Source of the DNA: Desulfurococcales archaeon
GTDB lineage: Archaea; Thermoproteota; Thermoprotei_A; Sulfolobales; Desulfurococcaceae
Length of the DNA: 64,000 nucleotides
Assembly (NCBI GenBank): GCA_015520735.1
Contig: WAPN01000002.1
Location: 1 to 64,000, forward strand
Direction: 5' to 3'
Made by a program: the position numbers and the translations under genes. The notes below the pieces were generated by a model. It did no database searches, had not been told where the DNA came from, and worked only from the letters and a program-made list of their open reading frames with translations. Below are positions 1,311 to 25,613 of this stretch, one piece after another (the first letter of the stretch is position 1; each line of letters begins with the position of its first letter).

Positions 1311-3470
1311 TCACTTCTTCTTTACAATAACCACAGCGATAATTATAGCTACGATGATAATTACTATTGACGCTATTATCTCTGCCGGAACACCGCCTGA
1401 TGGAGGAGTAGCCGTCGAAGTAGTTGTTGGGCTTGTTGCTGACGGCGTTATGGTTGTTGTGGTCTGTGGCGGCACCGTAGTGGTAGTTGTCGTAGTGGTA
1501 GTAGTTGTTGCCGTTGTAGTAGTCGTAGTAGTAGTGGCCGAAGTAGTAGTTGTAGTAGTGGTCGTCGTCGGCTTATATCCTGGCGGATAGAATGTTAGCT
1601 TGAAGTCATAGGTCTTGGTGTTGCCTGCCCAGTCGGATACAGTGATCTTTATATCTGCTGGTAATGGTTTAGTGCCTGACAGGGTTATAGATGCCTGGTA
1701 GGTGCCCCTACTGTAAGGCGCTAGTTTAAGTGGTTCGGTCTTTCCGTTAACGGTTATGGTTGCCTTGACGTTCTTTACTCCCCATCCCTCATCCTTGATC
1801 GTGAAGAATATTGTGTTTGCTCTGCCGAGTGTTGGGGTTGATGGTATCATTAAACCTAATTTAACTAGGGGCGGTGTGTTGTCCGGTGCGTTATAGAGTG
1901 CGAAGACTAGCTTGCTCTTGGGCTCTAACTTAATATGTAGTGCGACATATAGTCTTCCGTTGATCACCTTGTAAGTTACGATGCTGGCTGATGCATTGCC
2001 TTGTGATTCCAACACCTTTAACCCCGCAGTATCTCCTGCCCAAGGCAGTGCTAGGAGTATCGTTCTGTCAAGATGTAGTTCTGGTAGATAGTTCTCGAAC
2101 CCCATGATGTATGCGTGTGGGGCATAATGGTAGAATCCATAGTAGTACTGGTCGTCTTGTACCTTGTAGTTCCAGTTTGGAGTTATTTTAGGTAGTGTGA
2201 CTGGTATTGAATTATAAACCTGGTACCTGCTGACGTTCTTAAAGCCTACGAAAGTCGGTGGTGCATAGGGGAATGTTAGGTTGAAGGGCTTAACCTGTAC
2301 TCTGACGTACTGTAATCCCTGGTACCTCCCTGTTCCATGTGCTAGAGTGGTTGTTGTTATGAAATATGTTGTCCATCCAGTCCATGTAGAATGGTACTCG
2401 ACATACTGATCCCTATGAATGTGGCCTGCTAAAACGATGTTCACGTGGTATTCTTCACATAGTTTCAGGAAGTATCTGGCAGCTGTTAGGTTGGTTCCCC
2501 AGTAGTAGCTGATCGCGCTCTGCTTGTACTTATGGGGGTCGCCGAGTATTGGTGAGGTAGTGTTCCATGTGGTAGTTATCTGTCCCTGGTAATAGAATAC
2601 TGGGTGGTGGAACTGTATGATCTTTATAGGTATATCCTTGTATTTCTCCAAGATCTGTGTCAGCCATTTTAATTCATTCCATGAAGGATAGCCGTCCTCT
2701 CCGCGAGTGTTTAATGCTACAAGAAGTATGTTCTGGCCGATAATCCTATACCAGGTTGTCTGGCCATAGTATTTGATGAAGTTACCGTTAGGATAGTCAT
2801 GGTTGCCAGGGTTTAGGAATACAGGTAGTGGATAGAGGAACGCGTATCTAAAGGCTCTTGATTCCTGGTATTGTGTTAGTGCTTGAGTGTCGGCCTCGTC
2901 GCCGGTATTTATGACTATGTTGGGGTGCAGTAGCTGAGCTAGTATTTCGCCGGCAAACCTCCTATATTGTCCAATAGTCTCATTGGGATGTCCAGTTCCA
3001 AAGTGTAGGTCACTCATGTGGACAAATGTTAGTATCTCGAATGGGCCGCTGATCACCCATACGCTCCTAGGTATGAAGTACTCTTTCCCTCCCCCTTGTA
3101 AAACTAGATCGTAGAGAGCAGGCTTAACATCGCTTGGGAGCTTCACTGTGTACTTGGAACCACTACCGCTCACCGTGACTGTGTATTTCAGCTCTACCAG
3201 CTTATTGTCCTCGAGGACGACCGTGCTGATGTATCCCTGACTAACTGACACGCTTGTCTTGAAAGTGACACTGAAAGTTCCGCCCGGCAGTACTACAGCT
3301 GGATGACCTGGGCTAGGATCGAGTGTTGGGAGTTCTTTTACATATTTTGTTATAGGTGGCAATACATTTGTTGACTCCGCACGGGCGATTCCTTGTAATG
3401 ATGGCGATATCAGGGCGATTACCATGAGAGCGAATATTGTGATGAACAACAGCTTCTCGGTTTTAGCCAT
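1311..3470 (-). CDS. Surface-anchored calcineurin-like metallophosphoesterase with Thr-rich stalk
   Basis: A 719-residue secreted protein. Residues 1-31 form a signal peptide. An N-terminal beta domain precedes the metallophosphoesterase core, whose metal motifs are visible in order: DLH at about 154, GDEAD at about 190, GNHD at about 223, a FHHP motif near 288 and GHIH near 350. A C-terminal beta-rich domain is followed by about 55 residues of mostly Thr, a hydrophobic helix and KKK. It probably hydrolyses phosphoesters outside the cell; the substrate cannot be told. The ATG start is preceded by a strong ribosome-binding site (GGGAGAGGTG on the coding strand). It is convergent with the partial stalk protein at 2-535, with which it shares nearly identical stalk DNA. 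Confidence 0.9.
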   Translation of the reverse strand: MAKTEKLLFITIFALMVIALISPSLQGIARAESTNVLPPITKYVKELPTLDPSPGHPAVVLPGGTFSVTFKTSVSVSQGYISTVVLEDNKLVELKYTVTVSGSGSKYTVKLPSDVKPALYDLVLQGGGKEYFIPRSVWVISGPFEILTFVHMSDLHFGTGHPNETIGQYRRFAGEILAQLLHPNIVINTGDEADTQALTQYQESRAFRYAFLYPLPVFLNPGNHDYPNGNFIKYYGQTTWYRIIGQNILLVALNTRGEDGYPSWNELKWLTQILEKYKDIPIKIIQFHHPVFYYQGQITTTWNTTSPILGDPHKYKQSAISYYWGTNLTAARYFLKLCEEYHVNIVLAGHIHRDQYVEYHSTWTGWTTYFITTTTLAHGTGRYQGLQYVRVQVKPFNLTFPYAPPTFVGFKNVSRYQVYNSIPVTLPKITPNWNYKVQDDQYYYGFYHYAPHAYIMGFENYLPELHLDRTILLALPWAGDTAGLKVLESQGNASASIVTYKVINGRLYVALHIKLEPKSKLVFALYNAPDNTPPLVKLGLMIPSTPTLGRANTIFFTIKDEGWGVKNVKATITVNGKTEPLKLAPYSRGTYQASITLSGTKPLPADIKITVSDWAGNTKTYDFKLTFYPPGYKPTTTTTTTTTSATTTTTTTTATTTTTTTTTTTVPPQTTTTITPSATSPTTTSTATPPSGGVPAEIIASIVIIIVAIIIAVVIVKKK
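1451..1532 (-). repeat. Inverted repeat copy B, stalk-coding DNA
   Basis: Reverse-complement partner of 293-374, about 80 bp with one mismatch. It lies inside the stalk of the metallophosphoesterase gene. Beyond the repeat, copy A has a short extra block before both genes resume similarity over a Ser/Ala/Thr-Pro segment, which suggests an indel in one copy. Confidence 0.85.
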
Positions 3471-3626
3471 AATGGATACACCTCTCCCTTAGGAACCTCT
3501 AGTTATTTCTTGTAGCATAGAAATAAAAAGTAAATTCTTTGGTTCAAACAGTTTCGATAGCCTCCCAAAGGATTAGACGTATAAACAGATATTTTGATCC
3601 CGTCGTTACTGGGGGGTGAGCAGGGC

Positions 3627-5636
3627 ATGAAATGGACTATCATTTCATTATTCCTGCTTATGATATTGCTTGTTTCGACAACGCCTCCTGTTTTTATGGC
3701 TGGGCAACAAAGGGATTTGTTCAGCTATACATGGGTTCGGACACGGACTGTGCATGCTCCAGCAGTTACAAGCGAATATGGTCCAGGGGTAATGACAACA
3801 ATCAACGTGACAGTGGCTTATCCGGGACATGGCAATATATATTTTAGAGCATCACCACTCACCGAGCTCGACATGCAAGCGACAGTCCAGATCGCCGTCA
3901 TGGTTGCCTGCAATGTGCTAGGCCTAAATATGAACAACTATGACTTCTACGTATCGGTCAATGCCGGAAGCATTATCATTGGAGGTCCTAGTGCCGGCGG
4001 GATAATAACTGTCGCAGTAATGGCGGCACTGGAAAACGTTAGCATTAAGCCATGGATAACAATGACGGGCATGATAAACCCTGACGGAACAATAGGGCCT
4101 GTAGGCGGATTAAAGGGTAAGCTAGAAGCAGCTGCCCAGGCCGGATATAAGTACTTCTTGATCCCCATGGGGCAACGGATAATACTTGTGCCTAACATTA
4201 CGTACCAACAGTTATTTCCGGGCATATTCGTGAGTAGAGTCAATTATGAGAAGATAGACCTTATTAAGCTCGGCGAGAAACTCGGGGTAAAGGTTGTCGA
4301 GATATCAAATATCAGGCAAGCCTATTACTTTTTCACAGGAGTCAACTTGACGGTTACTGCTGAGAACATACCGACCAGTGCAGCCGAGAAAATAGTTGGT
4401 CTTGTGAAGAACAATACGCTGGAGATCATAAATGCTACAACATACTATATCAACACAACAACTAACCTGGCAAAACTCCTTCCACCCGCAGCTACGAATA
4501 TTGTTGCCGAGATGACGAACGAGGCGACCAAGTTATCAAGTGTAGCAGATAAGCTCTTAGAGGAGAAGAAATACTATTCCGCGAGAGCAGAGGCATTATC
4601 AGCACTCCAAATAGCTTCACAAGCATACCTTATCGCGAATGGATTGATGAGTAAGAACAGCTTTATCAATATAATCAAGAACGTCAACCAGAGCTTCGTA
4701 AACCTCTATAAACAATACAGCGTACTAGCCAGTAAGTCTGAGATCCCAGTACAGGGATTAGGGGCATTAATGGTTCTAGGAATAAACGTTAATGAGATAC
4801 GGCAGGATATCGAGAAAGCCGCGAAGTACCTTGGTAGAAACGATCTAAGGGATGCTGTGAACACCCTATCAGATGCTATAACGAGAAGCTACTCGGCGCA
4901 CCTCTACCTGAGAATAGCCATTGAACTAGGTGGTGGAATAACCGCTGACAAGTCAGCCCTCGAGAAAACATCACTAACACTTTATGGCGTAGCGAGAAGC
5001 ATATACGCGTACGCTTACACGCTCGCCAAAGACATAAATGCTAATCCAAGTTCTCTTCAGAAGAGCGGCGACTACCTAAACAAGGCGGCTGAAATGATCA
5101 CTTCTGGTGACTATGTGGCTGGGCTTGGATATATTATAGACTCGATAAGCTTAGGGGTAACAAGCATACATGAATTGTTCACAGTGAACAATGTTGAGGC
5201 ATTATCGGTAATCAGCAACCTAAGACTTAATGCTTTACAGAACATCAAGCAACTTATATCGCTTGGGATAACACCGTATGCGTCAATAAACTATTATCTA
5301 CTAGGTGAACAACTGGCCAGAACAAATAGTACAGCCACAATACTTTTCTGCTATATCAAATCTTCAACTATAGCAATGATACAGGATATGCTAATCACAA
5401 CATCCAAGACCAGTGCATCAACGGGGACCGTTACAGCGACGCCCACCCCAACAAGAACTCCCACCACCCCTGCAGGCACAACTACATCAGTACCTGGCAT
5501 AGCTAATATAACCATAGTCCCTAGGACAACTAATAACACGCCTTACGGCCTTATACTAGCAATAGTAGTAGTTCTCATGATCGCTGCCTTCATCGTAGGC
5601 TACGGAGTGGGCAGAGCATCTGGAAAAACACATTAG
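3627..5636 (+). CDS. Membrane-anchored extracellular Lon-type (S16) serine protease without ATPase domain
   Basis: About 669 residues. A signal peptide (MKWTIISLFLLMILL...) leads to a Lon proteolytic domain at about 85-200, with the catalytic Ser in GGPSAGG (about 122) and the catalytic Lys in GGLKGK (about 163), the S16 Ser-Lys dyad. No AAA+ Walker motifs are present. A long alpha-helical region (about 240-590) follows, then a Thr/Pro stalk and a C-terminal membrane helix. The protease therefore probably faces outward and cannot use ATP. I chose ATG 3627 because GGGGGGTGA lies 7 bases upstream and a signal peptide starts directly; an in-frame TTG at 3594 is less likely. A TATA-like GTATAAAC lies near 3580. 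A T-run follows the stop codon. Confidence 0.88.
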   Translation: MKWTIISLFLLMILLVSTTPPVFMAGQQRDLFSYTWVRTRTVHAPAVTSEYGPGVMTTINVTVAYPGHGNIYFRASPLTELDMQATVQIAVMVACNVLGLNMNNYDFYVSVNAGSIIIGGPSAGGIITVAVMAALENVSIKPWITMTGMINPDGTIGPVGGLKGKLEAAAQAGYKYFLIPMGQRIILVPNITYQQLFPGIFVSRVNYEKIDLIKLGEKLGVKVVEISNIRQAYYFFTGVNLTVTAENIPTSAAEKIVGLVKNNTLEIINATTYYINTTTNLAKLLPPAATNIVAEMTNEATKLSSVADKLLEEKKYYSARAEALSALQIASQAYLIANGLMSKNSFINIIKNVNQSFVNLYKQYSVLASKSEIPVQGLGALMVLGINVNEIRQDIEKAAKYLGRNDLRDAVNTLSDAITRSYSAHLYLRIAIELGGGITADKSALEKTSLTLYGVARSIYAYAYTLAKDINANPSSLQKSGDYLNKAAEMITSGDYVAGLGYIIDSISLGVTSIHELFTVNNVEALSVISNLRLNALQNIKQLISLGITPYASINYYLLGEQLARTNSTATILFCYIKSSTIAMIQDMLITTSKTSASTGTVTATPTPTRTPTTPAGTTTSVPGIANITIVPRTTNNTPYGLILAIVVVLMIAAFIVGYGVGRASGKTH

Positions 5637-5692
5637 TTTTTCAAATCTCTACTAAGAAACAATTAGCGGCAAATCGGTTTCGGTGAGGAGTT

Positions 5693-6223
5693 GTGTCTGA
5701 GATCAAGTATGTAGCAATAGCCGCAGTAAGCGAGGAGCCCAGCCCAACGCTCATAAAGAACGCCGATGAATTTCTCGATAAAATAGCACCCTTTAGAGGG
5801 ACTATAAGGATCATACTTGGCGGTTATTGGGGGCTAATGCGTGTGATCGCTGATAAGGCCGCCGAGAAAGGTTTTACCGTGATATTTACGTTGCCCGAGA
5901 ACCCTCCTGTAATGCCTCCTCGTAGGAAAGAATTCATACCAATCGTAACTGATCTAGGGTTCCAGTCGAGAAGCACTGTGATGTGTAGAACTTGTGATGT
6001 ATTAGTTGCTATGGGGGGTCGGATAGGCAGTATTTTAGAAGTTCTATTAGCGTATGACTTTGGAAAACCATCCGTCGTCGTGAGATCGGGGTATGATACC
6101 GATAAGCTGGAGAAATGCTTTTCCCGCTATGTGGATAAGCGTAGAAAGGCGCCTATCTACTATGTCGACTCGGGCTATGAGGCTGCTGAGAAGGTGTTGA
6201 AGCTCCTAGGTATTAACATGTAA
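5693..6223 (+). CDS. Rossmann-fold nucleotide-binding protein (TIGR00725/LOG-like)
   Basis: A 176-residue protein of the predicted Rossmann-fold nucleotide-binding group related to LOG and DprA-type folds. It shows the N-terminal strand-helix, a glycine-rich turn GGYWGLM in the place where relatives have GGGxxGLM, and a second loop VAMGGRIGSILE corresponding to the GGxGTxxE motif, although here it reads GGRIGSILE. The classical PGGxGT signature of the cytokinin-activating LOG enzymes is therefore altered and the activity is uncertain. The start is GTG at 5693 with GGTGAGGAG just upstream. It lies 56 bases after the S16 protease gene on the same strand, so co-transcription is possible. Confidence 0.75.
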   Translation: MSEIKYVAIAAVSEEPSPTLIKNADEFLDKIAPFRGTIRIILGGYWGLMRVIADKAAEKGFTVIFTLPENPPVMPPRRKEFIPIVTDLGFQSRSTVMCRTCDVLVAMGGRIGSILEVLLAYDFGKPSVVVRSGYDTDKLEKCFSRYVDKRRKAPIYYVDSGYEAAEKVLKLLGINM

Positions 6224-18469: not shown

Positions 18470-18613
18470 CGTCGGGCTACAACACATCATCAAATATTTA
18501 GATCTAAGGGTTTTTATTCTATGATTACAATGTAATAATACATGAAACAACATTATCGCAGCATTATCAGAATAAATACAGAATGCATACATCAATCGTA
18601 TGGGTGCCTAACC

Positions 18614-19861
18614 TTGAATGCATTAGTGATTAGTTTAGCCAGTGAGCTACATAGCAGGGAATATTATTCGAAGCTGTACGAGAGCTTCAAGAGGTTCTTC
18701 CGAAGCATTGAAGAGGTCGAGATCATTGAAGAACCACAGTATGATGTGCCAGAAATACCGCGGGACGAATACGACCTAGCATTCGTGATCATACTAACAG
18801 GAGGTACCAGCAGGCTCGCCGAACGGGTAGCGAGGAAGCTGAATGTACCAATTGTACTTATAGCTCATAATAGGCATAATAGCCTGGCCTCAGCCCTGAG
18901 TGCTAGGGAGAGGATCAGGAAGCTAGGAGTTAAGGTGCTGCTTGTCCTAGCCAATGACGAATACACTCTAGCCTCTAAGCTAACACCGATAATCAAGGGA
19001 ATAAGTACGGCCATAGCGTTGTCTAGGCTCAGAGTCCTAGAGATAAACAGGGAGGGCCTCCCCAGCCCGAGGGCCAAATACTTCATGGAGGTAACTGGCA
19101 CCAAGGTAGAGGCTGTAAACTATAAAGAAGTATTGGAAAAAGCAATGAACGCTTCCGAGGAGGATCTCAAAGAGATAAGGGATTCCGTAGCATTACACAT
19201 CGATACATCGGGGGTGGACCAGGATTATCTCGACAAGGCACTCAGGATATACTATGCGTTAAGACGCATAGTCCTAGAGAAAGGATATAATGCTGTCTCT
19301 ATAGACTGCTTCCCGTTTCTCATAGAATATGGTGTAACACCTTGTCTAGCCGTGGCAATGCTTAACAATGACGGCATACCTACTGCTTGCGAAGATGATT
19401 TCTACAGCCTCATAATGTTGTTCATAAGCCTAAGCTTCACCGGTAAGCCAGGATGGATAGCAAATCCGAGCGGCGCAACCGATGAGGGATATCTCAGGTT
19501 CGCTCACTGCACAATAGCGCCGAGCCTAGGGAAGAGCTGTTACCTCGTTCCACACTTCGAGACGGGTAAACCATATGCTGTCACATGTAGGCTTTCGGGC
19601 AAGAGGTACGTGTTCGGGAGAATAACAACTAATTATACTGGTATAGTATTGTATCGGGGCAAGAAGATCAATAGCGGCCTGCTCGAGCCAGGATATTGTA
19701 GGACACAACTTATACTCGATACTGGTCCCCTCGATGCGGATAAGTTTATAGAAGGAGCCGTGGGTAACCATCACGTGTTCATGGAGTGGACCAACGATAT
19801 AATAGAGGCTTTCAAGGCCCTGGCATGGTGGATGAATTGGCGTTTAGAGATAAGAAACTAG
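18614..19861 (+). CDS. L-fucose isomerase-like protein
   Basis: About 415 residues. The order of segments resembles the fucose/arabinose isomerase-like group (COG2407): an N-terminal NALVISLASELHSREYY strand, a middle alpha/beta domain, ECF-type segments such as SIDCFPFLIEYGVTPCLAVAMLNNDGIPTACEDD with metal-type acidic residues, a FAHCTIAP segment and a C-terminal GNHHVF motif. It may act on a sugar or on a related polyol; activity is not proven. TTG 18614 has GGGTG 7 bases upstream and starts exactly at the first core strand. ATG 18542 is in frame but would add 24 residues that do not look like part of the fold. The 3' end overlaps the thiL gene. Confidence 0.65.
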   Translation: MNALVISLASELHSREYYSKLYESFKRFFRSIEEVEIIEEPQYDVPEIPRDEYDLAFVIILTGGTSRLAERVARKLNVPIVLIAHNRHNSLASALSARERIRKLGVKVLLVLANDEYTLASKLTPIIKGISTAIALSRLRVLEINREGLPSPRAKYFMEVTGTKVEAVNYKEVLEKAMNASEEDLKEIRDSVALHIDTSGVDQDYLDKALRIYYALRRIVLEKGYNAVSIDCFPFLIEYGVTPCLAVAMLNNDGIPTACEDDFYSLIMLFISLSFTGKPGWIANPSGATDEGYLRFAHCTIAPSLGKSCYLVPHFETGKPYAVTCRLSGKRYVFGRITTNYTGIVLYRGKKINSGLLEPGYCRTQLILDTGPLDADKFIEGAVGNHHVFMEWTNDIIEAFKALAWWMNWRLEIRN

Positions 19862-20856
19862 GGGAGATCGGAGAGGAAGAACTGGTAGAGATTATCATCA
19901 AGTATCTCGACCCGCCAAAGCAATATGAGCATCTCCCACCCGGAGATGACGCACGAGATTTTTTACCTACTGGCCCAAAGCTTGTTTTCTCAAGCGACGC
20001 ATACAGCTTCTCGTCTCTGAAACTGCCTTGGAGAACATGGCGTGACGCTGGATGGGCCGGAGCAGTCGGATGTATAAGTGATCACTTCTCTAAAGGATCA
20101 ATACCCTATGCAGCTATGATAAATCTAGGGCTCAGCTCGGAGATGAGGCTAGCGGATTTCATTGATCTGATCGAGGGGGTTAGGGAGGCATTATCAGCCT
20201 ATAATATAGTGTATGCTGGCGGAGACCTCAACTCGTCCAAGGATCCATGGATATCCACTAGTATAATAGGCTATACCACGGCCAAGAAGCCTCCTAGGAG
20301 AAGCGGTGCTAGGCCAGGCGACAAGATAGTGGTCACTGGCCTCTACGGAGCTATGGGCATAGTCTCACTGGATGGGATAGATGAGGCTTCAAGACATGAA
20401 TGGATCATTGAGGCTACCAGGAGGCCTAGGCCATGGATCGAGGCAAGTATAGTTGTGGCATATTATTATAGATGGATAGATGCCTCGATGGATGTGAGCG
20501 ACGGCCTATCCTATACACTATACGTGATGGCTAGAGAAGCCGGGTTATCGGTACGGTTAACCTCTCCTCCCCGATACTTCGGTGAGCTCAAAGAATACTG
20601 TAGAGGAAGGGGAGATCCGGAGAGATGTATTATTGAGAGGTGCTTGGCCGGCGGCGAGGAGTACGGCGTCGTAATGGCTATTAATGAGAAATACGTCGGG
20701 GAGGTAACCGAGATGCTCGAAAAATTTGGTGTCCCCTACGCCATTATAGGGGAGTTTATAGAGAGAGGTACCCCTGGTGAGATCTTCTGGCGCGGAGAAA
20801 AGATCGGGATTGTGAGATGGGATCAGTTCCTTGGCTGGAGGAAAAAGAATAGTTAG
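19825..20856 (+). CDS. thiL: Thiamine-monophosphate kinase-like protein
   Basis: About 343 residues of the PurM/ThiL ATP-grasp-unrelated kinase fold. Motifs: LGEIGEEELVEII at the N-terminus, PPGDDARDF (ATP/Mg2+-binding GDDA), SSDAYSFSSLKLP, YAGGDLNSS, TGLYGAMG and DVSDGLSYTL. ThiL converts thiamine monophosphate to the diphosphate with ATP. The 5' end overlaps the fucose-isomerase-like gene by about 37 bases. Start ATG 19825 or TTG 19837 (with GGTGG upstream) are both possible; ATG 19786 looks too far upstream. The end overlaps the convergent HTH gene by 4 bases. Slightly long for ThiL, and the N-terminal DAYSFSS deviates from the usual T-D motif, so another substrate is possible. Confidence 0.72.
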   Translation: MVDELAFRDKKLGEIGEEELVEIIIKYLDPPKQYEHLPPGDDARDFLPTGPKLVFSSDAYSFSSLKLPWRTWRDAGWAGAVGCISDHFSKGSIPYAAMINLGLSSEMRLADFIDLIEGVREALSAYNIVYAGGDLNSSKDPWISTSIIGYTTAKKPPRRSGARPGDKIVVTGLYGAMGIVSLDGIDEASRHEWIIEATRRPRPWIEASIVVAYYYRWIDASMDVSDGLSYTLYVMAREAGLSVRLTSPPRYFGELKEYCRGRGDPERCIIERCLAGGEEYGVVMAINEKYVGEVTEMLEKFGVPYAIIGEFIERGTPGEIFWRGEKIGIVRWDQFLGWRKKNS

Positions 20857-21266
20857 CTGTAAAACAGTATATGTCTAGGATCTATGCCCCCGAAGATTCT
20901 TGGACATATATCACAGGTTGAAGGATTAACATCATCTATCTCCGCGTGGAACTTGCATACATATTTTCTCGCCAGAACATACAGTGTGAGAGCCGATAAC
21001 AAAGCGACAACATCTTCAACCCCGATCCCGTTGTTCATAACGGAGTCCGCGATATGATCCAGAATCCTCACCACGTCGGGATATATTGAGAAATCTATGT
21101 ATTTTCCTCGTTCGCCCTTCAAGTACCTCGTCACAAGTGATCTGGATAGGCCTAGAAGCCGCGCTACTTCTGCTGGTCTAGCACCCTTGTATCTCAGCCT
21201 GACCACTAGGAGCCTTCGTAGGCTCGGATATACATATTTGTCTGCTATGGTGAAGATACTCTTCAA
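20853..21266 (-). CDS. HTH transcriptional regulator with C-terminal Cys/His motif
   Basis: 137 residues. A helix-turn-helix lies at about 29-50 (ARPAEVARLLGLSRSLVTRYLKG). A helical middle is followed by CxxH at 104-107 and CxxC at 118-121, which may bind zinc or an Fe-S cluster. This is the plan of the archaeal COG2522-type regulators. The TTG start abuts the TAA of the DUF438 gene upstream, so the two are one transcription unit. The regulator could control that unit through the GTTGACA dyad at its promoter (inference). Confidence 0.75.
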   Translation of the reverse strand: MKSIFTIADKYVYPSLRRLLVVRLRYKGARPAEVARLLGLSRSLVTRYLKGERGKYIDFSIYPDVVRILDHIADSVMNNGIGVEDVVALLSALTLYVLARKYVCKFHAEIDDVNPSTCDICPRIFGGIDPRHILFYS

Positions 21267-22571
21267 TTAGAGCACCATTATCTTCTCCTTTATCTCCTCT
21301 GGGTTTGAGACTATTTCGGTCATGTCTTCAACTATCTCTAGAGTACCCATGTATTTACCCTTATCATTCCTCACGCCGACTATTAGCACTCTTATTATTC
21401 TTCCTCCCATCCTTGTCCAGAATTCTCGATAAGTTAATCCCTGCTTCTTGAGGAGCTCGACATTCTTCATCACATACTTCTCTAGTCTCGGTGGGTGGCA
21501 GTACCCTATCTTCCTCCCGATAATGGTTTTGCTACGCGGAAATCCCATTGCGAGCTTGCTCATCGTGAAGAATCTGACCCTGTCATTGTTGTCGGCGTAG
21601 GTAATCTCGAGCGGTAAATGTTTAAATATGCTGATTATTTCTTCTCGTCGAAGGAAACCTGTCTCTAGGTCTATATCGTCGTCCCTCACAACCCTGTATT
21701 TATCCGGAATAATTTCTCCCACCACCTTCTTGATCTCCGGCGGTAGTTTCTCGAATTTATCCACTGGTATTTCTCCCGCGATCATGTATGGGTACACCGG
21801 CTTTGAACGAGGCACCCATTTCTTCCCTGATGATACTATGTATCCGAACTCCTCGGCCAGCTCATGTATTGCGGCCCACTCTCCCTCGCCTAGTAGGGTC
21901 CAGGCCGTGGGATACAGGATCTTATTCTCTCTGAACGCTATATCGGTTACATCCATGGATATTTTTACGAGGGTTTCAGCTAGCTTGTCTATTTCTTCTA
22001 CCGTCCCGGGCTTCTCGCCGAGAATCTTCCTTATCTCCATTATTACTTGGTCTTCCCTGCCCCACAATACTCTAGGGATAGCGTCTATTCCTCGTTTCTC
22101 GAGGTAGGGGAAGAGGAGCATCTGGTTCTTCCTGTAATGTTTCCTGATCATGCCTTTGAGATTGTCGAGGATATTGAAAATTATGCCGAGATACCTTTTC
22201 TTTTCAGCTATACTCTGAGTATTCTTAATGGCCGAGGCATATAGTGATAAAGCTTCCGCTGTCTTCATTATCTCTATATTTTCTCTTATTAGTAGATCGA
22301 GCGGGTGTCCTTCCGGAACCCCTTCCAGTTCCTGTGTGGCGAGATATTCTCGGAACATGTCAACGTGGATATCGCAGACTTTAAGAATGTCTTCTGGCTT
22401 TACTCCTTCACGCATGAGCTGTTGTTCAATGAGCGCTATTTCGAAGGGACTTATATCCCTAAGTATCTCCCGGTATTTCTGCTTGAGTTCCTCCGGGTCA
22501 GCGCCCATGGTTATTTCTTTGAGTATCTGTTTTACCAACTGGATTTTCTGTTCTCGAGTCATAGTTGACAC
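21267..22571 (-). CDS. DUF438 protein with hemerythrin-like and PAS-like domains
   Basis: 434 residues. The N-terminal DUF438 region (about 10-80, FEIALIEQQLMREGVKPEDILKVCD) leads to a hemerythrin-like four-helix domain (about 85-260) with HPLDLL, an H-x4-QMLLFPYLEKRG helix and a FRENKILYPTAW helix. A C-terminal PAS-like domain (about 320-425) holds KTIIGRKIGYCHPP. Such proteins are thought to sense oxygen, NO or redox state through a diiron site; none is well characterised in this group. GTG 22571 or ATG 22562 can be the start; a perfect dyad covers the GTG. It is directly followed by the HTH gene. Confidence 0.82.
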   Translation of the reverse strand: MSTMTREQKIQLVKQILKEITMGADPEELKQKYREILRDISPFEIALIEQQLMREGVKPEDILKVCDIHVDMFREYLATQELEGVPEGHPLDLLIRENIEIMKTAEALSLYASAIKNTQSIAEKKRYLGIIFNILDNLKGMIRKHYRKNQMLLFPYLEKRGIDAIPRVLWGREDQVIMEIRKILGEKPGTVEEIDKLAETLVKISMDVTDIAFRENKILYPTAWTLLGEGEWAAIHELAEEFGYIVSSGKKWVPRSKPVYPYMIAGEIPVDKFEKLPPEIKKVVGEIIPDKYRVVRDDDIDLETGFLRREEIISIFKHLPLEITYADNNDRVRFFTMSKLAMGFPRSKTIIGRKIGYCHPPRLEKYVMKNVELLKKQGLTYREFWTRMGGRIIRVLIVGVRNDKGKYMGTLEIVEDMTEIVSNPEEIKEKIMVL

Positions 22572-22618: not shown

Positions 22619-22642
22619 CTAAACCTATAGGTAAACCTATAG
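22619..22642. repeat. Tandem 12-bp repeat upstream of the DUF438 promoter
   Basis: Two 12-base units, CTAAACCTATAG and GTAAACCTATAG, lie head to tail and differ at one base. They contain a 10-base palindrome ACCTATAGGT at 22623-22632. The second unit overlaps the stop codon of polB2. The position just upstream of the DUF438 TATA region suggests an activator or repressor site. Confidence 0.5.
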
Positions 22643-24586
22643 AAGGAATGTGTCCCCAGGGCTTGGTAGTTCTCTGCGTGCGTTCTCAAGGAGCTCCAAG
22701 TAGTAGTCCCGATCATATGATCCTCTGTACTCGAGCGTGGGGATAAGCTTTCTTCCTGGCCCGACAATGTAGGCCGTCTCCATGGCCTTGCCCGTCATAA
22801 GTACAGTTATGCTACCTGACTGTGTTGACGGTTTCTTGGAGGGACGCGTTATCCTTCTCCTTATGACGAGCTGCCATGCTTCGACGTCTCCATTTCTTAT
22901 CTTTTCTGCATACTCGTCGAATACATGGTATGCTTCTCTCAACATACCCCTGAACGTTGCGGGATCCTCTGCTCCGCTCAGAATCCCTATTGCCTTCTCT
23001 TGGGCCTCCTTAATTATTGGTGGCGTATCCTTCCTCGCGGCCATAACCCCCTTGATCTTCACGTCGCCGTTCTTCAATGCACCATAGTACCTGTTAGCTG
23101 CTCCGAAGCCTTTCTTGGTTAGGGGTATATAGAGCCACTTATAGTCTGCCTCAACCTTTGCCTTGAAATCGGTTGCTTTGACCACTAGGTCTCTTATTTC
23201 TTCACAGCTCTTATCCTCTGGGTGTTTGACGAATAAGCTGTCGACGAGGACATGGATCACTGTGCATCCATTCTCTTCCAGGATCTTTCTGGCTGTACCT
23301 ATGATGTACCTATCCATACTGGTCACTGTCTCGTGGGCCATTATTGATCCGAACATGCTTTTCCTATAGCCAAGATAGCCGAAGCTTGCCACCAGTATCC
23401 ATTTGATAGATGACTGCCTCTCGTCCAGCACCTCTTTTAGCTTTGGATCACTTGTTCTCTTCATTTCCTCCTTTATCTTCTCCCTGAGATCCACTAGTCT
23501 CTCGAGAACAAGCGAGACTATGCCCCGGCGCTCAAAACATATCTTGTGGCCCGTGCCGGGTAGTCTGACGGCGTCACGGCAGGAGGGATCATCGACTGTT
23601 TCTCCACTAATATTATACTTGGCTATTATGCTGGGGTAAAGGCTGTTGAAGTCTATCTGGCAAATCCCCCAGTATAAGCCTGGTCGTGGGGTGTAGACTG
23701 CTCCCCCACGATCATACTGTAGTAGCTCTCGTAGGGGTCTCCAGGGCTCGACCCTGCCGTGCCCGGGGACTGCTAGGTATTTCTTCTTCCTTGCCTCGAG
23801 GGCCTCTATTGTGGTCAGTACTCTACCTATACTGGCGCCGCTGAGCATTCTCAGAGGGGTATAGCTCAACCTGCTCCACATGACAAGGCCGTGGTAACCA
23901 GTGAATGTTGTCGACCTGTCTATTCTCACATGGGATATCCTTGATGCCTCGAAGCCTCTGGATACGAGCTCCGCTATCGTTGGGGAGGAAGCTATGAGTA
24001 CATCGTAGTGTTTCCCGCTTAGATATACTGGTAGCTCTTCCACTGCTACCCTGTCTTCTCCCCATTCACCTCTTATGATGACATGTGTAGCGAAGCCGAG
24101 GCCGGGTACCTCTATCTCTCCATAAACCTCTATTATCTCGGCCCACTTGAACGGGGGGATAGACTCATCATCGAGTACCTCGGCCCTCCTACCATTGATG
24201 CTTATGAGCGAGGAGGGCTTGGCCCCGAGCCTCCACAGGGCCTCAACGAGGGGGTCTGGCACAGTATTCACGGGTTCGCCAGCCCCCAGCCTCGGGGCCT
24301 GGGAGAGCATCTTCTTCAACGCATAGTAGTCACTCGTCTCAAACACAACTATGTCTGTACCCCTACGGTAGTAGGGTGGCTCGAGCCATTCCTCAACCCA
24401 TGCCTTCCTGACGTACCGGGAGCTCATAAGGTCTCTGGCCAGGTTCTCCGGGGAGACCCATGGCCTAATATATCCTCTGAACCCTGGGTCTATTCTCGCA
24501 CGGATAATTCTATCCCTGTCTTTCAGGACTAGATCTAGTCCGCCCCCATGCAGGGGGAACGCGTCGAGGAGCCAGCCCCGGGGCAT
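22637..24586 (-). CDS. polB2: Archaeal family-B DNA polymerase PolB2 with altered catalytic motif
   Basis: 649 residues. Polymerase motif A is intact in form (IDFNSLYPSI, 311-320, Asp312). Motif B region K395...FGYLGYRKSMFG is present. Motif C reads HVLVDSLF (about 445-452) where active family-B enzymes have YGDTDSLF, so the first catalytic Asp is Leu and only Asp449 remains. No clear exonuclease motifs are seen in the first 300 residues. This fits the archaeal PolB2 group, once called inactivated but reported in Sulfolobus to act in lesion bypass. ATG start has GTGAGGA upstream. It follows the small protein and RadA-like genes in one operon. Confidence 0.85.
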   Translation of the reverse strand: MPRGWLLDAFPLHGGGLDLVLKDRDRIIRARIDPGFRGYIRPWVSPENLARDLMSSRYVRKAWVEEWLEPPYYRRGTDIVVFETSDYYALKKMLSQAPRLGAGEPVNTVPDPLVEALWRLGAKPSSLISINGRRAEVLDDESIPPFKWAEIIEVYGEIEVPGLGFATHVIIRGEWGEDRVAVEELPVYLSGKHYDVLIASSPTIAELVSRGFEASRISHVRIDRSTTFTGYHGLVMWSRLSYTPLRMLSGASIGRVLTTIEALEARKKKYLAVPGHGRVEPWRPLRELLQYDRGGAVYTPRPGLYWGICQIDFNSLYPSIIAKYNISGETVDDPSCRDAVRLPGTGHKICFERRGIVSLVLERLVDLREKIKEEMKRTSDPKLKEVLDERQSSIKWILVASFGYLGYRKSMFGSIMAHETVTSMDRYIIGTARKILEENGCTVIHVLVDSLFVKHPEDKSCEEIRDLVVKATDFKAKVEADYKWLYIPLTKKGFGAANRYYGALKNGDVKIKGVMAARKDTPPIIKEAQEKAIGILSGAEDPATFRGMLREAYHVFDEYAEKIRNGDVEAWQLVIRRRITRPSKKPSTQSGSITVLMTGKAMETAYIVGPGRKLIPTLEYRGSYDRDYYLELLENARRELPSPGDTFLL

Positions 24587-24626
24587 ATTTCTTCCTCACT
24601 GGTATTATTGATCATTCATCCTATTA

Positions 24627-24881
24627 TCATTTTTCATCAGCCATGTTAACGCCCTGAAGCCCGGCAATCCTCCTAAGCATGTGGAGGACTATTATCTCGA
24701 AGGGGTCGGGAGGAGGCGAGACGTGGAGGTAGGCCGTGATGGTCTCCTCGATACCATCGAGGAGAGATTCGAGGACTGTTGCCTCGCTGCGGGGCAGATA
24801 CCTGATCGTCTTCTTGATCCTCTCTAGCTCCCTATAGACAGCCATTCTGTAAGACGGCGTTGTACGCCCCACGGCCCCCAC
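24627..24881 (-). CDS. Small helical protein of the PolB2 operon
   Basis: Up to 84 residues, with two amphipathic helices (RELERIKKTIRYLPRSEATVLESLLDGIEETITAYL and PDPFEIIVLHMLRRIAGL). No known domain recognised. The first in-frame GTG at 24881 would overlap the RadA-like gene by 58 bases. ATG 24845 would leave 72 residues and an overlap of 22 bases. Either way translation is probably coupled to the upstream gene. It lies 40 bases before polB2, so it may be a partner or an accessory factor of the polymerase (inference from position). Confidence 0.65.
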   Translation of the reverse strand: MGAVGRTTPSYRMAVYRELERIKKTIRYLPRSEATVLESLLDGIEETITAYLHVSPPPDPFEIIVLHMLRRIAGLQGVNMADEK

Positions 24882-25474
24882 CCCTCAAGCAGTTCTAGCG
24901 GAAAAGAAGAGCAGATCCCCTCCCGTGGCCCAGGATACTTCCTCAGGTAGAGGTAGCCCCTATCACCCCTCCTCCTGAGCTCCACCAATACATGGACGCT
25001 ATGGCTATGATACTTTCCTCCCTCGGCGATTCTTCCTAGCCTGCTCCTCGTGTTAAATAATACTATTCTGAGCCCTCCCGATAATCTGCGGAGAACCCCC
25101 ACTATCCTAGTAGCTTCGCAGTAGCCTCTAATACTCTGAGCAATGAATGTGAACGGGTACTTGACCACGAGCGTCCCGGAAGCATTCTCGAGAGTCTCTA
25201 GAACGCCTATCAGGTCATTAACACGGAAAGCTCTCGAGACCATGATGTTATCGATACTGCCCCCGAGCCTCCTAGCGAGCCTGGAGACGAGGTAGGGGTC
25301 TAGGCCGCCGAAATCCGTGTTGATCACAAGATATACTGTATCATACCTGCTCCTGAACGCCACGGTATAATGCATCACTAGATCGACTATTCTATCGTCA
25401 CCGTAGAACTCTATCATCCAGTGCCTCGGCACAGGCCCTAGTGCATCATCAATGATACTGATACCTGTAATCAC
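24824..25474 (-). CDS. RadA/RecA-like protein with degenerate ATP-binding site
   Basis: 216 residues with the layout of a RadA/KaiC core: a TGISIIDDALG-type start, a position equal to Walker A that reads EFYGDDRIV with no GKT/S, and a position equal to Walker B that reads LRIVLFNT with Asn in place of Asp. It is therefore probably not an ATPase and may be a structural paralogue of the recombinase. The GTG start has GAGGGA 6 bases upstream. It is first in the operon with the small helical protein and PolB2. I recall the same partnership in other archaea, but this needs checking. Confidence 0.7.
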   Translation of the reverse strand: MITGISIIDDALGPVPRHWMIEFYGDDRIVDLVMHYTVAFRSRYDTVYLVINTDFGGLDPYLVSRLARRLGGSIDNIMVSRAFRVNDLIGVLETLENASGTLVVKYPFTFIAQSIRGYCEATRIVGVLRRLSGGLRIVLFNTRSRLGRIAEGGKYHSHSVHVLVELRRRGDRGYLYLRKYPGPREGICSSFPLELLEGWGPWGVQRRLTEWLSIGS

Positions 25475-25613
25475 AGCTTATCCCTCATTGATCATTAAAA
25501 CACTATAATAGGAGGAGAGCATGCCGAAACTATTCTTTCACTATTATTTGCATAATTAATCAGATAAATGATATAATCATCTAAAATCAAGAAGAACATG
25601 AGGGGAAACACTT

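Follow-up and report, generated by a model that had tools for sequence, protein, structure and literature searches.

A PolB2 mutasome-type operon of a Desulfurococcales archaeon with a predicted clamp-binding tail and a docking arm read from the same bases

Introduction

What does a RadA-like protein without an ATP-binding motif do in one operon with a B-family DNA polymerase that has lost a catalytic aspartate? The question is raised by a locus in the window, which is the whole stretch of 64,000 nucleotides from a Desulfurococcales archaeon that we analyzed. The original prediction described a three-gene operon encoding a RadA-like protein, a small helical protein without a known role, and a polymerase of the PolB2 group, and suggested a dedicated lesion-bypass complex linked to DNA damage tolerance. 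The gene identities, the operon, the damage-tolerance link and the dedicated complex all stand, but the set is not unusual. Makarova et al. 2014 (PMC4104785) had already noted an operon of the same three genes, and Timinskas et al. 2025 (PMC11791011) name the proteins iRadA, PPB2 and PolB2 and model them as a translesion "mutasome", so that names exist for both the ATP-dead RadA and the small protein as subunits. Judged by its sequence, the window operon is a further member of this known system and not a new one. It very probably encodes a PolB2 mutasome, in which the three proteins would make up one translesion polymerase for primer extension past lesions.

Results

The operon and its genome

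The listing of open reading frames gave three minus-strand ORFs at 22637–25474 of the window in the order iRadA-PPB2-PolB2, with the first two overlapping, as originally described. The features discussed below are as follows.

25475–25541, minus strand: upstream block kept in four relatives, putative promoter
24824–25474, minus strand: iRadA gene, 216 aa, GTG start, RadA/Rad51-family protein (ORF, family profile, fold match, RadA alignment)
24824–24872, minus strand: 49-nt iRadA/PPB2 overlap, the iRadA 3' end and the PPB2 5' end in two frames
24839–24862, minus strand: iRadA PIP-like (predicted clamp-binding) motif QRRLTEWL, within the overlap
24843–24872, minus strand: PPB2 arm MGRTTPSYRM, same bases as the iRadA tail in the other frame
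24627–24872, minus strand: PPB2 (arCOG07300) gene, 81 aa from GTG 24872 (36-sequence alignment, helical model)
22637–24586, minus strand: PolB2 gene, 649-aa DNA polymerase (Pfam DNA_pol_B, clusters with PolB2 of the order)
23231–23254, minus strand: PolB2 motif C HVLVDSLF (alignment with 50 PolB2 and the genome's two other B-family polymerases)

The source genome is 1.53 Mb in size and near-complete, and its closest named relatives are Desulfurococcales/Thermoproteota metagenome genomes. It encodes three B-family polymerases, among which the operon PolB2 has the lowest Pfam-model score, together with one active RadA, two Cdc6/Orc1-type genes and three PCNA genes. No Y-family polymerase was detected in the genome, leaving PolB2 as the sole evident translesion polymerase there. 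Outside the operon, the gene at 21267–22571 (minus strand), which lies downstream and encodes DUF438, hemerythrin and PAS domains, is followed by a small HTH gene (20853–21266), and a 439-aa protein without a Pfam match (18542–19861, plus strand) overlaps an AIR-synthase-like gene at 19786–20856.

iRadA is a RadA relative without an ATP site

On its own, iRadA matched no Pfam or NCBIfam family significantly, and only profiles of the family and the comparison of folds revealed its relation to RadA. In the PDB, a profile built from 34 homologues detected archaeal RadA/Rad51 chains (best E value 3.1e-07), and the genome's own RadA aligned along the core with iRadA at profile positions 4–196. An AlphaFold model from a five-sequence input was of low confidence (pLDDT 58) and resembled Rad51 paralogues, RecA and Rad51 with E values of about 1e-07. 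The protein starts directly with the core domain, without the N-terminal domain, and its start codon is backed by an ATG at the same codon in a close relative (L038). Aligned with the RadA of the same genome, iRadA has lost the Walker A motif GEYGTGKTQ and carries VKYP for the Walker B motif IIDS, with loss of the Asp, confirming for the window protein the predicted absence of Walker A and of the Walker B acidic residue. The claim holds only in part for the family: GK[ST] is absent at the Walker A place in the 34 homologue sequences, whereas several relatives keep the Walker B Asp, in the form IDPY. The RadA-like protein is the iRadA of Timinskas et al. 2025.

The C-terminus of iRadA carries the PIP-like motif QRRLTEWL (residues 205–212, including Q205, L208 and W211) in the tail peptide QRRLTEWLSIGS, and no PIP motif was found in the tail of the window PolB2. 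A strict PIP motif occurs within the last 30 residues in 20 of 49 iRadA proteins versus none of 53 PolB2 proteins (chance about 0.4% per tail), and nearly all of the 20 come from loci in which iRadA and PPB2 overlap. The iRadA tail alone gave no useful match against PDB sequences. According to PMC11791011, a clamp-binding motif is present at the iRadA or PolB2 C-terminus in a fraction of mutasomes.

A rival reading is a mainly recombinational complex, in which iRadA would sit at the end of a RadA filament, as in the Rad51-paralogue or RecA-Pol V systems, and PolB2 would extend recombination intermediates. The best fold match of the low-confidence iRadA model is a chain of a Rad51-paralogue complex that caps the RAD51 filament, and the genome has one active RadA. 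We nevertheless consider this reading unlikely, for iRadA has neither the N-terminal domain nor the ATP site, and in PMC11791011 the models that combine PolB2 with active RadA are very poor (ranking score 0.28), those with iRadA good. The translesion mutasome is the reading that we carry forward.

PolB2 lacks one motif-C aspartate as a rule

PolB2 matches Pfam DNA_pol_B (E value 3e-31), its palm resembles archaeal B-family structures, and it groups with PolB2 proteins of the same order. Motif C reads HVLVDSLF, in which the first Asp is replaced by Leu, as originally observed, and the second Asp is present. The replacement is not an oddity of this protein, since that position holds Ile in 37 and Leu in 13 of the 50 aligned PolB2 sequences of the order and Asp in none, making the substitution the rule for PolB2. 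With this one exception, the catalytic residues are retained in the 50 sequences. In the window protein, motif A (DFNSLYPSI), motif B (IKWILVASFGYLGY), the second motif-C Asp and the His at the start of motif C are all kept, and the D(K/R) motif before the palm reads QYDRGG, i.e. DR.

Nor does the loss abolish polymerase activity. Sulfolobus Dpo2, in which the corresponding Asp is Ile, is active and extends mismatched and lesion-opposed ends (PMC8764526), and S. islandicus requires it for the targeted mutagenesis that DNA damage induces (PMC7390963; PMC11791011). It is therefore most improbable that PolB2 is dead and the operon a scaffold regulating replication or stalled forks, a proposal that predates the activity measurements and draws on the inactivation predicted by earlier authors (PMC4104785) and on the Asp replaced in 50 of 50 sequences, because Dpo2 works with the corresponding Asp replaced and the remaining polymerase motifs are retained.

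The small protein is PPB2 and most likely starts at 24872

PPB2 alone gave no significant match in Pfam and NCBIfam scans. Its AlphaFold model is all-helical (pLDDT 85), and a fold search with the five-sequence monomer model returned no significant PDB match and did not reproduce the published likeness to a three-helix sigma-factor structure. In an alignment of 36 homologues, M1, G2 and R3 are invariant and are followed by T, P and S in most sequences and by R9 in many. The mechanical ORF starts at the first GTG, at 24881, and would give an 84-aa protein beginning with MGAVGRT. From the sequence, the start is most likely the GTG at 24872 (81 aa) instead, because MGR is invariant in the 36 homologues and the spacing of the GAGGGG sequence fits 24872 only. 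The N-terminal arm from 24872 reads MGRTTPSYR, with both R3 and R9 present. In L038, the upstream codon is ATG, which on sequence alone leaves some probability for the longer form. The correction is of consequence, as what the arm is proposed to do hinges on the precise N-terminus. The small protein is PPB2 (arCOG07300), and the view that it has no known role is outdated, as PMC11791011 gives it a name and a proposed architecture.

The three genes occur together across the order

Among 197 genomes of the order, in which a clear score gap set PolB2 apart from other polymerases, PolB2 was found in 75 and iRadA and PPB2 each in 73, the last two in identical sets. All three occur together in 72 of the 197, and the association on which the original prediction depended was borne out. 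Three genomes have PolB2 only and one has iRadA/PPB2 only. In the three PolB2-only genomes, PolB2 lies at the extreme start of its contig in an orientation that cuts away the upstream genes. Nearly all fetched PolB2 loci that are uncut by a contig end have both partner genes nearby, and two genomes, G181 and G087, are split. In G181 (L081, L074), the split is evident from iRadA-PPB2 and PolB2 lying on different contigs with ABC transporter genes upstream of PolB2.

The gene orders seen were iRadA-PPB2-PolB2, iRadA divergent from PPB2-PolB2, and PPB2-iRadA divergent from PolB2; in the Sulfolobaceae-like family, PolB2 precedes iRadA. These varied orders agree with the published tight association in several arrangements. 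An overlapping iRadA-PPB2 pair without an adjacent PolB2 was observed in a genome that is 63% complete (L080, G053:C4:12500-21500, positions 4973–5824), adjoined by a convergent gene and apparent CRISPR-associated genes. Outside the order, a 365-aa ORF that matches both the iRadA and the PPB2 profiles and overlaps a 725-aa polymerase (L094, G503, positions 2680–5909) is probably an iRadA-PPB2 fusion.

Y-family polymerases (PF00817) were found among the 197 genomes only in the Sulfolobaceae-like family f11, which comprises 30 genomes. PolB2 is present without a Y-family polymerase in 47 genomes, and two f11 genomes (G059 and G179) have the reverse combination. Many genomes of the order appear to lack both, and the PolB2 complex would therefore be dispensable in general.

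The iRadA tail and the PPB2 arm are read from the same bases

With the PPB2 start at 24872, the iRadA/PPB2 overlap is 49 nt long. In this segment, the iRadA frame reads W-G-V-Q-R-R-L-T-E-W-L, carrying the clamp-binding pattern QxxLxxWL, and the PPB2 frame reads M-G-R-T-T-P-S-Y-R-M. Overlaps of 37, 40 or 49 nt with this frame relation are present in 26 loci from five families (f1, f2, f5, f6 and f9) and 16 genus-level groups, which are non-independent and not to be taken as 16 separate origins. Two of the 16 are second lineages inside a labelled genus, and one more, L037, is closely related to the genus of the window.

The iRadA tail motif might be a by-product of the conserved PPB2 arm. This was rejected, as the core pattern Q-L-[WYF]-[L-type] was seen in the iRadA frame of 13 of the 16 groups against 0.23 of 16 expected, an expectation conditioned on each PPB2 amino-acid sequence and on local codon usage. 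The codons of the arm are restricted as well. At PPB2 codon 4, 14 of the 16 overlapping groups use ACA or TCA, as against a mixture of codons elsewhere, and at codon 9, 15 of the 16 use AGA. Residue 10 is Met in 10 of 16 overlapping groups versus 0 of 20 non-overlapping genera as counted, with the exception of a non-overlapping locus (L087) that has Met there; Met is expected in the overlapping groups because ATG followed by G is needed for the iRadA Trp. These codon patterns indicate that synonymous freedom has been surrendered in the overlap across a long divergence, and because freedom in one frame is sacrificed for the other, they are independent evidence, from sequence, for the importance of the iRadA tail as well as the PPB2 arm. 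In two loci of genus g37 (L046 and L048), the overlap is kept at 37 nt and the iRadA-frame clamp motif is degenerate (GGLSPHLGLL).

The overlapping loci are spread over several deep branches of the PolB2 tree and require 4 changes under a midpoint root, and a recent shared accident was accordingly discarded as their origin. The overlap is probably one old state with losses, on a tree whose root is the midpoint and with horizontal transfer possible. On balance, we favor the view that a dual-coded clamp tail and arm of about 33 nt is under selection in a large share of the non-Sulfolobaceae lineages of the order, and that the canonical Gln of the clamp motif is mostly gone where the two genes lie apart.

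The upstream region holds a putative promoter

Four relatives share a conserved stretch of about 65 nt that precedes the iRadA start, and farther upstream the sequences of L037 and L038 fail to align. The conserved block reads GAATAGTTTCGG...TCCTATTATAGTG...GAGGGATAAGC and holds a TATA-like sequence, CTATTATAG, and one copy of ANTTTC (AGTTTC at 25526–25531), the damage-response element bound by Orc1-2 in Sulfolobus (PMC9738581). ANTTTC is not enriched in the window (99 found versus 116 expected). A lone copy is often expected by chance, which makes damage induction a hypothesis here. By analogy with Sulfolobus, DNA damage is the probable inducer of the operon.

Discussion

The complex proposed for this operon follows published models and Sulfolobus experiments. 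PolB2 would be the catalytic subunit, with the motif A Asp, the motif B Lys and the second motif-C Asp retained, and would extend primers beyond lesions without proofreading. iRadA, having lost its ATP site, would act as a structural adaptor that docks on PolB2 in the way a Rad51 protomer docks on its neighbor, and its C-terminal QRRLTEWL tail is the probable tether to PCNA in this lineage. PPB2, probably as a trimer, would reach with one MGRT arm into the space between PolB2 and iRadA, close to the DNA. The stoichiometry modelled in PMC11791011 is one iRadA, three PPB2 and one PolB2. As for the original suggestion that translational coupling of the first two genes fixes their stoichiometry, coupling is no demonstration of a ratio, and the modelled ratio is unequal. 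The low-confidence iRadA model, the general dispensability of the complex and the iRadA-PPB2 pair of G053 without an adjacent PolB2 count against the mutasome explanation.

The window operon shares with the PolB2 mutasome of PMC11791011 the three families and their order, the MGRT arm with R3 and R9, the D(K/R) motif, the C-terminal clamp motif of iRadA and the loss of the first motif-C Asp. It shares the polymerase group and the partners with the Sulfolobus Dpo2 operon, which is damage-inducible in Sulfolobus according to the literature and whose polymerase is about 540–610 aa long as compared with 649 aa here. The Sulfolobaceae-like family differs further from the window operon in that iRadA follows PolB2 or lies on the opposite strand, no overlap exists, and the genomes usually encode a Y-family polymerase as well. 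The E. coli Pol V mutasome (UmuC-UmuD'2-RecA) likewise combines a polymerase, a small subunit that inserts an arm and a RecA-family partner (PMC11791011). However, Pol V pairs a Y-family polymerase with an active RecA, whereas the PolB2 complex pairs a B-family polymerase with an inactive RecA homologue, and the Pol V small subunit is unrelated to PPB2. The window system is thus not a Pol V member.

The 49-nt overlap with both binding motifs inside is where the window departs from the published description. The main text of PMC11791011 covers iRadA clamp motifs, iRadA-PPB2 fusions and the MGRT arm, and contains no word beginning "overlap". A clamp tail and a docking arm that share their DNA letters in two frames are thus apparently the sole unreported detail.

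With this operon, the range of a known damage-tolerance complex comes to include a lineage where no Y-family polymerase could be found. If the dual coding is indeed selected, the same bases would weld PCNA recruitment to mutasome assembly, and the translation of PPB2 would hinge on a start codon within iRadA.
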